Shown here in pieces: positions 8,993 to 43,646 of a DNA stretch of 44,271 nt; the stretch's first letter is position 1; the number at the start of each line of letters is the position of its first letter. Location of the stretch: the IMG/VR virus record IMGVR_UViG_3300031787_000236, positions 1-44,271 of that record. One strand, 5' to 3'. The translations under genes were made by a program, and so were the position numbers. The notes under the pieces are model-generated. The model did no database searches, was not told the origin of the DNA, and saw nothing but the letters and a program-made list of their open reading frames with translations. This stretch comes from a virus.

Positions 8993-9706
8993 ATGTCCGC
9001 TACCGTGATTATACCAACCACTGGATCACCAGAGGTAAAAACTGCCGTTGAATCTGTCCTAAATCAAAGTCATCCTACAGAATGTTATGTTATTATTGAT
9101 GGCGACCAACACATGGACAAAACAATAGAATCATTAGGTTCAACTGTTGATGATATACGAGTTCACATTTGTTCTTTACCAATCAATGTCGGTGCCAATG
9201 GATTTTATGGTCACCGTGTCTATGCTGCCTTCACACACCTAATCAATACAGAATATGTCGGATATCTCGACCAAGATAATTGGTTGTATCGGTCTCATAT
9301 TGAACAATGTATTAAAACAATCAACACAAGAAGTTTGGATTGGTGTTACTCCCTACGACAAATATATAATAAAGAAGGTAAATTTGTTTGTTTTGATGAT
9401 TGCGAATCATTAGGTAAGTGGCCAACATATCACGGAGTGCACCATATAGATACTAATTGTTATTTCATTAAAACGGAAGTAGCAAATAAAATTGCAAGTG
9501 CTTGGCACGGTGGTTGGGGTCAAGATAGAGTGTTTCTACAAGCAATAACACATCATTTTCCTAAATTTGATTGTACAAAAGAATATACAACGTGTTATAG
9601 AGTAGATGGTGGTAAAGGTTCTGTCAATGCAGAATTCTTTGAGAATGGTAACAAAGTAATGAATGAAAAATATAATGGAGAATACCCATGGCGGAAAAAA
9701 GCCTAA
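8993..9706 (+). CDS. glycosyltransferase, family 2-like (GT-A fold)
   Basis: Probably a nucleotide-sugar transferase. The N-terminus, ATVIIPTTGSPEVKTAVESVL (residues about 3-23), is the nucleotide-binding start of GT2 enzymes. A YLDQDNW segment at about 93-99 is in the place of the DxD metal-binding motif. HGGWGQDRVF near residue 174 is a plausible acceptor or catalytic loop. The length, 237 residues, is typical for a minimal GT-A domain. It starts the nine-gene glycan island. Confidence 0.8.
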   Translation: MSATVIIPTTGSPEVKTAVESVLNQSHPTECYVIIDGDQHMDKTIESLGSTVDDIRVHICSLPINVGANGFYGHRVYAAFTHLINTEYVGYLDQDNWLYRSHIEQCIKTINTRSLDWCYSLRQIYNKEGKFVCFDDCESLGKWPTYHGVHHIDTNCYFIKTEVANKIASAWHGGWGQDRVFLQAITHHFPKFDCTKEYTTCYRVDGGKGSVNAEFFENGNKVMNEKYNGEYPWRKKA

Positions 9707-10536
9707 TCATAGGTGCATTTACTAATTACAACTACAATCAATTAAAACCTTGGGTTGAATCAATTGATGAGTGTGGTTTTACTGGCGACAAAGCCATGGT
9801 TGTTGGTAATGCTTCACAAGAAACGATTGATGAACTAGTTAAAAGGAATTTCATCATCATTAAGATGCATGATATCAAAGCACCAATTCATGTGGCTCGA
9901 TTTCTTTCAATCTACGATTTTCTTAAAAAAAATTGGCAAAATTACAATCATGTGGTTACCACAGATGTCAAAGATGTTTACTTTCAAACAAATCCAATTA
10001 CATGGTTAGAACTTAATCTTAAAGGTAAAAAATTAGTTGCTGGTTCTGAAGGTATGAGATATAAAGATGAACCATGGGGTAACGAGAATCTTATGCAAGC
10101 TTATGGGCCATATGTTCATGAGCAGTTCAAAAATAACGAAATATACAATGTTGGAACCATTGGTGGCGTTTCTGAATATGTAAAAGATATGGTTTTCAAT
10201 ATTTTATTTAATGCAATCAACAGGCCTATTCCTATTTGTGACCAGGCTGTATATAATGTTTTGATTCAAACACAACCATTTAAAGATATAACTCGTTTTG
10301 CTGTACAACTGGATGGATGGGCTTGTCAGGCTGGTACTACCGTTGATCCGTCTAAAATTGAATCATTCAGACCACATCTATTAGAACCAGAACCAAAATT
10401 TGAAGATGGTGTTGTTAAAACATCTTTGGGTGAGCCATTTGCAATCGTACATCAATATGACCGAGTGCCTGTGTGGAAAGAATACATTAAACAAAAATAC
10501 CAACAAGAAGATTTAATTACTTTTAGAACCGAATAA
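9688..10536 (+). CDS. putative glycosyltransferase (nucleotide-diphospho-sugar transferase-like)
   Basis: A 282-residue protein that looks like a GT-A-type transferase. The N-terminus, KSLIIGAFTNYNYNQLKPWV, is followed by TTDVKDVYFQTNP at residues about 91-103, which fits a DxD-type metal site. A 'YNVGTIGG' segment follows and 'CDQAVYN' comes later, as in many stub-type glycosyltransferases. The start overlaps the previous gene by 19 bases, with GGAGAA upstream. The sugar donor and acceptor cannot be inferred. Confidence 0.65.
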   Translation: MAEKSLIIGAFTNYNYNQLKPWVESIDECGFTGDKAMVVGNASQETIDELVKRNFIIIKMHDIKAPIHVARFLSIYDFLKKNWQNYNHVVTTDVKDVYFQTNPITWLELNLKGKKLVAGSEGMRYKDEPWGNENLMQAYGPYVHEQFKNNEIYNVGTIGGVSEYVKDMVFNILFNAINRPIPICDQAVYNVLIQTQPFKDITRFAVQLDGWACQAGTTVDPSKIESFRPHLLEPEPKFEDGVVKTSLGEPFAIVHQYDRVPVWKEYIKQKYQQEDLITFRTE

Positions 10537-42658: not shown

Positions 42659-42837
42659 TGAAAGAACTATTAAAAGAACACAGTATCAATCCTAATAAAC
42701 AAACACTTCATATCTCCGGTGAACGCATGAGAGCCTTCTGTACCGATATTTCTGGTAAATGGGTACCAGTTGAAGATGTAATGAAACTCGTGGACCGTAT
42801 TCATGAATTAGAGAAACAAATCTATGGATCCCGTTAG
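42655..42837 (+). CDS. small helical protein
   Basis: A 60-residue protein from ATG 42655 or 42658 (ATGA overlap). It contains KWVPVEDVMKLVDRIHELEKQI, a likely coiled-coil helix. No family recognised. Confidence 0.6.
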   Translation: MMKELLKEHSINPNKQTLHISGERMRAFCTDISGKWVPVEDVMKLVDRIHELEKQIYGSR

Positions 42838-42940
42838 ACAATACCAAGAACGCTTCTGGTCCTTGTGGACGGACCTGAAAAAAATTTTAGGATTAATGAA
42901 TCCGAAAAATCGAAATCCTGACGGAAGCCCCAGAAAATAA
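42824..42940 (+). CDS. 38-residue protein ending the early operon
   Basis: A very short gene at ATG 42824 inside the end of the previous one. MDPVRQYQERFWSLWTDLKK begins it and it ends in a basic NPKNRNPDGSPRK tail. It is supported by the same overlap style as its neighbours and by the terminator directly after the stop. Confidence 0.45.
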   Translation: MDPVRQYQERFWSLWTDLKKILGLMNPKNRNPDGSPRK

Positions 42941-42948
42941 AAAATTGG

Positions 42949-42979
42949 AAAAAAGAGTTTGACCTGGAAACACTTTTTT
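42949..42979 (+). terminator. intrinsic-terminator-like hairpin
   Basis: AAAAAAGAGTTT (42949-42960), loop GACCTGG, AAACACTTTTTT (42968-42979): 11 of 12 stem pairs, with an A-tract on the left and a T-tract on the right, so it could end transcription from either side. It begins nine bases after the last stop of the early operon. Confidence 0.6.
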
Positions 42980-43250
42980 AGCTAACACTTCACACCACCC
43001 CTCCCCCCTATACACCATATAGTCAAAATCAGAGCTGCCCTCCGAGCCGTACCAGTACAGCGCTGTACAGCAGTCACGAAGCACTCCGAAGCAGTCCCCA
43101 TACGGCTCCAGTACTGCAGCTCTCCAGTATCCCACCCAATCCCCACACGGCTCCAGAGCTGGCTCCACGACCCTCCGAGCCGTACCACCTCGAGGCGTTT
43201 TCGTGCGTCCTCGTGAACCCCGACCAATACTTGACCAAAACGCTACAGTA
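42980..43250. other. GC-rich, C-skewed structured noncoding element
   Basis: About 270 bases with no convincing gene, much richer in G+C and especially C on the + strand than the surrounding AT-rich genome. It contains direct repeats CCCTCCGAGCCGTACCA (43038-43054 and 43171-43187) and TCCCCA(T/C)ACGGCTCCAG (43095-43111 and 43140-43156). GAGCCGT and ACGGCTC are reverse complements, giving an A-B-B-A dyad layout. A 14-bp palindrome, GTACAGCGCTGTAC (43055-43068), lies between. It is bounded by a terminator upstream and a promoter downstream, so it is unlikely to be part of an mRNA. An origin, packaging or recombination site, or a structured RNA, are options. Confidence 0.6.
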
Positions 43251-43295
43251 TTATTCTCAATAAAATCAAGCGCTTACAGGAGTGGCAAATAGTTA

Positions 43296-43323
43296 TTGAC
43301 ACTGGCGCCAATTCGTGTATAAT
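43296..43323 (+). promoter_or_regulatory. consensus sigma70 promoter with palindrome in spacer
   Basis: TTGACA (43296-43301), 16-base spacer, TATAAT (43318-43323), 47 bases before ATG 43371. The spacer holds a perfect 8-bp palindrome TGGCGCCA (43303-43310), a possible operator. A pair ACAC/GTGT flanks it. Confidence 0.8.
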
Positions 43324-43370
43324 AGATTCTATTGTAGTAATTCATTAACACTTATAACGAAAGAAAAATT

Positions 43371-43646
43371 ATGTTTTCATATATTGATACAATTCAAAAC
43401 CTTACAGTCGCTGAAAAACGCAATTTAGTCAAATCTATTAAATTAATGATTAAAGAGCATATCGCTGCTAATCGTGACGCTAATTTCCAACGCAAACAAA
43501 ATTCTGCTTTGCTTCGTGCTCAGAAAAAACAAGAACGCATTGCGAAATTAGAAGAAAAACTAGCAAAACTCCGCAACCCCACCGGCGCTGTTGCTGTTCG
43601 CCAGAATCGCAAACCGTCCAAACCTGTAGTTACCACTTTCGCTTAA
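43371..43646 (+). CDS. small basic coiled-coil early protein
   Basis: A 91-residue basic protein. The N-terminal MFSYIDTIQNLTVAEKRNLVKSIKLMI is helical, the middle is a Lys/Glu/Ala coiled coil (QKKQERIAKLEEKLAKL), and the tail is basic (RQNRKPSKP). It is the first gene after a consensus promoter, so it is probably expressed early and strongly. The Leu/Lys-rich N-terminus resembles that of the next gene's product (IRELPLADKKTLLAML), hinting at a shared motif. Function unknown. Confidence 0.7.
   Translation: MFSYIDTIQNLTVAEKRNLVKSIKLMIKEHIAANRDANFQRKQNSALLRAQKKQERIAKLEEKLAKLRNPTGAVAVRQNRKPSKPVVTTFA

Follow-up and report, generated by a model that had tools for sequence, protein, structure and literature searches.

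Positions 42941-43225 of the window, that is the whole stretch of 44,271 bases (IMG/VR record G000) analysed here, probably constitute a Rho-assisted termination module that closes a long block of co-directional genes in a T4-like phage, as judged from sequence comparison. RNA polymerase leaving the operon would meet a weak intrinsic signal, the U-run element. Transcripts passing this element would expose ribosome-free, C-rich RNA, to which host Rho could bind, and Rho would release the polymerase before the next unit, namely the early promoter in the lineage of the window or, in other lineages, a convergent gene. The module consists of the following parts:

42941-42982, + strand: conserved noncoding A-run/GAGTTTGACCTGG/T-run element
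42949-42955 (AAAAAAG) and 42973-42979 (CTTTTTT): arms of the hairpin in the window, with inner GTTT/AAAC and the loop GACCTGG at 42961-42967
42981-43225, + strand: C-rich, G-poor tract, proposed to be Rho-loading (rut-like), with 102 C and 45 G in 245 nt (C/G 2.27)

Relatives of the window and sampling of loci

The window is part of a T4-like phage. Its DNA polymerase shows 52.7% identity to a cyanophage sequence, the best among the matches listed, and its peptidase about 35% identity to the best match listed. Relatives sharing the locus were obtained by two IMG/VR protein searches, one with the peptidase and one with the downstream 91-aa gene. Sixteen distinct relatives were aligned, while the near-identical L051, L057, L065 and L067 and the far L068 were left out; L050 is almost identical to the window. 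Over the 16 aligned relatives, conservation is seen in the A-rich DNA, GACC and T-run of the left end, in a short dyad close to the right end and in the consensus promoter. The blocks from the T-run to the end of the dyad measure 162-284 nt in this set and vary by mosaic gain and loss.

A search of IMG/VR with the motif alone, GAGTTTGACCTGG-N5-CTTTTTT, yielded at least 41 stretches, which were pooled with the earlier relatives to 42 distinct loci. Duplicates by the first 100 nt, L360 (where the contig ends) and L026 and L036 (A-run filter) were left out. The 42 loci are mutually related and many of them were recovered via the exact motif; in 12/12 motif-found contigs the peptidase is 46-56% identical to that of the window over the aligned pieces. 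Among the matches listed for a search with AATCCCCACACGGC, L192, L195 and L240 were examined, which are also matched by another pattern. An INPHARED search with the region gave no match, a peptidase search of genome_contigs gave no relative among the matches listed, and a second copy of the block elsewhere in G001, G002 or G012 was not found at E < 0.1. The sequences of L001, L008, L013, L016, L019, L066 and L069 end in or near the variable tract, and such contig ends look like assembly breaks from population variation.

A conserved A-run/GACCTGG/T-run element precedes the tract

GACC is invariant in 21/21 sequences, and GAGTTTGACCTGG is present in 36 of the 42 loci, many of which the motif itself had retrieved. 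Over the 42 loci the sequence is highly conserved as far as the T-run and AGC, and less so inside the tract. The exact motif occurs once per contig in 12/12 contigs (reversed control 0); as these contigs were found by the exact motif, its exactness is itself selected, whereas the tract that follows was not selected in this way. The stop of the last ORF found lies at distances of 2 to 93 nt ahead of GACC, and its frame varies (42 loci); the ORF ends in ...KRV in 8 loci, in ...SPRK in 5 and otherwise in 28, with no 40-aa ORF in the remaining one. Since stop position and frame vary, the conserved element is kept as DNA or RNA and not as one protein.

If the U-run hairpin alone acted as an ordinary intrinsic terminator, the C-rich tract would be a spacer that is C-rich for another reason or by inheritance. 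For this speaks that in 12/21 sequences the + strand adopts the A-run/T-run hairpin as its fold of lowest energy (other pairing in 9/21), and that in 42/42 loci the GACC loop sits on a helix of at least 7 bp, with a median of 9 bp against 7 bp in random pieces of the window, 60% of which also reach at least 7 bp. Nevertheless, the element folds weakly, at -2.9 to -10.9 kcal/mol over the 21 sequences, compared to -13.4 to -23.3 kcal/mol for the terminators of the 14 convergent neighbours described below. The stem is mostly A-U in place of the GC-rich stem of a canonical intrinsic terminator, and the terminator scan lists no + strand terminator-like site at the element. Inheritance alone, moreover, does not explain the C/G values of 42 differing tracts given in the next section. 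We therefore regard a purely intrinsic terminator as a rather unlikely explanation.

The GAGTTTGACCTGG element might instead be a sequence-specific signal of its own, with the C-rich tract as its partner in a terminator of two parts that is also a slot wall, a possibility that we consider tentatively. The signal may serve a factor, from phage or host, by which RNA polymerase is stopped, the 3' end trimmed or the recombination point of the accessory-gene slot fixed. T4-like phages are not known to have a two-part terminator and slot wall of such kind.

The tract keeps its composition but not its sequence

The first-pass annotation had described the region as the only long stretch without a gene and as unlike the rest of the genome in composition. 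Both statements proved correct: no stretch free of + strand ORFs of at least 38 aa is longer than 42941-43370 (430 nt vs. 122 nt for the next), GC is raised, and the 200-nt window at 42991 has the contig's largest excess of C over G (86 C, 34 G). Ranked by C minus G, the block takes the top place in G001 and G012 and the third place in G002.

In all 42 distinct loci, anchored on the element alone, C/G exceeds 1.5 (lowest 1.56), the measured stretch overrunning or being unbounded at the tract end in L059, L064, L070, L240, L344, L347, L361 and L363; for the tract alone, C/G is 2.25 in L059, 2.17 in L064 and 1.82 in L070. The median is about 2.3 in the two main classes of the automatic labelling, and the 16 aligned blocks range from 1.8 to 2.6. 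Of the 42 tracts, 37 lie in the top 1% of same-strand windows of their own contig (16/16, 18/22 and 3/4 in the three automatic classes). The far loci L026 and L036, dropped by the filter, have C/G of 2.5 and 1.56 and lie in the top 0.7% and 5.2%. The tract consensus is mostly C (42 loci). Tract length varies from about 45 to 250 nt among loci, with at least 70 nt in 30/42, less in 12/42 and 45-60 nt in 7/42, and the sequence turns over too. Thus the composition of the tract is kept while sequence and length change freely. By eye, the tract of L345, one of the 14 convergent loci described below, holds a weaker, promoter-like TTGCCT-17-TATAAT.

The module goes with the end of the upstream operon

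The module is found where a transcription unit ends, behind its last gene. In G025, a contig of 174.5 kb, 38 successive ORFs on one strand come immediately before it; in G026, according to the ORF caller, the same-strand run continues past the element, from 83321 to 84485. Class counts were taken from reading the 42 loci, the automatic labels being rough. The dyad (or its start) lies downstream in 21 loci, and two co-directional loci (L347, L361) have the promoter without the dyad. An A-run plus hairpin follows in 17, with the homologous convergent ORF seen in 14 of them and not in L348, L354 and L357, and two loci (L344 and L097) are unclear. For L056, L058 and L060 the automatic label 'convergent' was overridden, a known + strand gene lying downstream.

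In the 14 convergent loci the module faces the end of an ORF ending M.KVI..., and this gene has its own strong intrinsic terminator, an A-run and hairpin on its strand. A pattern search within 400 nt found neither dyad nor consensus promoter in these 14 loci. As element and tract are kept there without dyad and promoter, the module goes with the end of the upstream operon, and dyad and promoter belong with the early gene downstream. The first-pass annotation had argued against a role in an mRNA from the position between a terminator and a promoter. This argument is now reversed: transcripts of the upstream operon probably have the tract as their 3' end.

An accessory-gene slot lies directly left of the element

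42824-42940, + strand: small ORF of 38 aa (MDPVRQYQ...NPDGSPRK) that fills the slot in the window's lineage, as does L050:5454-5570

The genes directly left of the element differ among relatives, several of them being unrelated (L050-L070, L312-L365). Pfam identified a NUMOD3 protein, a T5orf172/MUG113 protein and a calcineurin-like phosphoesterase among this cargo; lipoprotein-like, HNH-like and other ORFs were recognised by eye, Pfam being silent on those tested. The gene left of the slot ends GS(R/K)* and is in the ORF listing of 9/16 relatives. Unrelated cargo genes share C-terminal residues, which are encoded by the fixed junction. The conserved module accordingly forms the right-hand boundary of this slot, in which genes are exchanged.

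Repeats, folding and replication signals

The first-pass annotation had further reported an A-B-B-A arrangement of repeats, all of which are present at the given places and lie inside the 42981-43225 tract:

43038-43054 and 43171-43187, + strand: exact 17-nt direct repeat CCCTCCGAGCCGTACCA, lineage-specific
43095 and 43140: 17-mer pair with one mismatch, TCCCCATACGGCTCCAG / TCCCCACACGGCTCCAG
43044 and 43177: core GAGCCGT
43102 and 43147: core ACGGCTC

The 14-bp palindrome GTACAGCGCTGTAC at 43055-43068 and the duplicated AGAGCTG (43031 and 43155) were likewise found. An exact direct repeat of 17 nt was reached by 0/2000 dinucleotide shuffles and an inverted repeat of 14 nt by 18/2000. Among the 16 aligned relatives, only L050 and L053 hold both core pairs and the palindrome, so conservation of the repeats does not extend to the relatives in general. 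They have probably arisen as local duplications within a tract that is free to drift.

The + strand of the window folds better than its shuffles (RNA z -2.54, DNA z -3.04), and together with the strong conservation of the A-run/GACCTGG/T-run element this could speak for a small RNA or a 3'-UTR-derived RNA with its own function. Over the 16 relatives, the + strand fold z scatters from -2.9 to +1.2 without a common fold. The window's helices are paired in 66.5% of cells in the window and seven relatives, a value reached by 6/500 shuffles, and three pairs within them changed on both sides, which 96/500 shuffles reach. Helix B (GAGCCGTA/TACGGCTC) is kept in 58% with zero double changes, the RNAalifold consensus amounts to -3.5 kcal/mol, and an Rfam search of the region gave no match at E up to 1. 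Because the repeats are not kept, double changes are not above shuffles, z is scattered and Rfam is silent, the region has no conserved structure, and the claim of a structured RNA was rejected on these grounds. Since the tract is, in addition, as short as 45-60 nt in some loci, a functional small RNA is quite improbable. A leftward RNA was also rejected: the promoter scan found no minus-strand promoter inside 42980-43300, the nearest being at 43397-43368 (9/12). A minus-strand terminator-like site is listed by the scan at 43045-43029.

Several features would fit a replication origin, or a packaging or recombination site. There is one motif copy per contig, A-tracts adjoin a repeat region rich in GC, and gene exchange is concentrated just upstream. 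Furthermore, the DnaA-type word TTATCCACA occurs in the 3' part of L056 and also beside the half-dyad of L312. It is absent from the other 15 aligned relatives, so that conserved initiator boxes were not found, and the L312 copy is about 1.8 kb away from element and tract. Cumulative GC skew shows a local dip and no switch, although its positive slope steepens downstream in G001 and G002, and in contigs of 174.5 and 156.6 kb the element is far from the ends. On the lack of a skew switch the origin proposed in the first-pass annotation was rejected, and a site of any of these types appears improbable. What stands of the earlier interpretation is that the region is noncoding, that no other part of the window has such a composition and that many relatives share the module to which it belongs; conserved structure and origin are not supported. 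Long stop-free frames on both strands (in L050 up to 91/94 and 93/93 codons) could indicate an unannotated coding sequence, but they are not kept among relatives, many indels are not multiples of three and the GC-rich, stop-poor composition explains them, so that coding was rejected as very improbable.

Dyad, promoter and downstream gene

43226-43252, no strand assigned: imperfect dyad AATACT..N..AGTATT, which resembles AATAGTYGACC-N5-GGTCRACTATT and is assigned to the next gene
43296-43323, + strand: consensus sigma-70 promoter TTGACA-16-TATAAT of the next (early-type) gene, 12/12 matches, kept in the alignment
43371-43646, + strand: first downstream gene, 91 aa (MFSYIDTIQN...), predicted to be mostly one long helix
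G001:75355 and 77857; G002:37053 and 39670; G012:2305 and 5025 (reversed-contig coordinates): sites of the dyad family

The sequence AATAGTYGACC-N5-GGTCRACTATT is found exactly once each in G001, G002 and G012, before another early promoter. The dyad before the 43371 gene deviates from it by 5 mismatches in G001, 3 in G002 and 6 in G012. Sites with at most 5 mismatches number 3 in G001 (exact copy at 77857), 2 in G002 and 2 in G012, while 20 x 90 kb of Markov-1 control sequence gave 3 matches with 5 mismatches each. As a candidate operator for a phage regulator, the dyad stands apart from the terminator finding.

In L312 only the right half of the dyad, CCGGTCAAGTATTATC at L312:9281, is present and the left half is absent. 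Both this half-dyad and the gene at 9432-10088, whose product has a similar C-terminus, are on the opposite strand at a distance of about 1.8 kb from the element. At L312:9296-9335 the DnaA-box-type words TTATCAACA and TTATCCACA occur beside the half-dyad, upstream of that gene. Small hairpins TGTTGT-N-ACAACA lie just upstream of early-type promoters at G001:68643, 78812, 82051 and 84757 (reversed contig). For the ORF at 43371-43646 a Pfam match to the anti-CRISPR AcrF8 (E 4.5e-4, 20.7 bits vs. a cut-off of 27) was rejected; since the predicted structure is mostly one long helix, the match is probably a charged-helix artefact.

Rho as the likely agent of termination

Rho-dependent terminators contain rut sites and are marked by 'C>G bubbles' (PMC9160355; PMC6407284); for rut sites an RNA stretch of at least 70-80 nt is cited. 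A published RUT rule asks, within 78 nt, for a C/G above 1 and for C at intervals of 11-13 nt (PMC6407284). By this rule 2013/2379 78-nt windows in the 16 blocks qualified (85%), with such windows in 16/16 blocks, and the background elsewhere in the window was 1464/43,835 (3.3%) on the + strand and 2907/44,194 (6.6%) on the minus strand. YC repeats are described as an auxiliary element of some Rho-dependent terminators (PMC9160355). In the 16 blocks YC dinucleotides are not denser than base composition gives (z -3.1 to +2.4). Further points count against Rho: the window's tract folds better than shuffles, although rut sites should be unstructured, and the exact conserved motif is more than a Rho terminator needs. 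As YC density, window fold, short tracts, surplus conserved motif and weak hairpin count against it, Rho is put forward as the likely agent of termination by inference.

The available clues hint at an alphaproteobacterial host. A permuted tmRNA gene with the tag ANDNKFALAA is encoded in the relative G002 (L078:15540-15924, minus strand); it scores 58 bits with alpha_tmRNA (cut-off 50), the best Rfam model being tmRNA_permuted with 112 bits. An INPHARED search with the tmRNA gave no match. PMC9004378 describes a marine T4-like phage that carries an alphaproteobacterial-type tmRNA in another host, and for this reason the tmRNA counts as a hint only. The metallophosphoesterase that some relatives have as slot cargo is closest to genes of Alphaproteobacteria-labelled genomes (best matches 57-59%), and most, not all, of the 80 relatives retained from 249 bear this label. 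A Rho RNA-binding domain is encoded in 3/4 genomes with relatives of a cargo gene. In cyanobacteria Rho is absent (PMC13289151). psbA was not found in 6/6 contigs, all of which are possibly fragments.

Lacking a sequence consensus, Rho-dependent terminators are difficult to detect by comparing sequences. In dozens of phage contigs the conserved element shows where to look, and selection on bare composition behind it becomes directly visible in two gene arrangements. If the Rho-assisted terminator is real, the loci would offer natural tracts, about 45-250 nt long, on which the requirements of Rho could be tested. It would also illustrate how gene blocks of a T4-like phage are insulated next to a slot in which homing-endonuclease-like and other genes are exchanged.

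Comparison with known systems

With the large structured phage ncRNAs GOLLD and ROOL the region shares that it is noncoding phage DNA of unusual composition, but it is shorter and shows neither conserved structure nor an Rfam match. Bidirectional-type intrinsic terminators have the same order of A-run, hairpin and U-run at an operon end; here, an A-U stem with the conserved GAGTTTGACCTGG takes the place of a GC-rich stem. Unlike known Rho-dependent terminators, the tract is preceded by a strictly conserved A-run/GACCTGG/T-run, and 12/42 tracts are below 70 nt. Nevertheless, it resembles them in a transcribed strand that is C-rich and G-poor, in the lack of a sequence consensus and in its position after the last gene of an operon.
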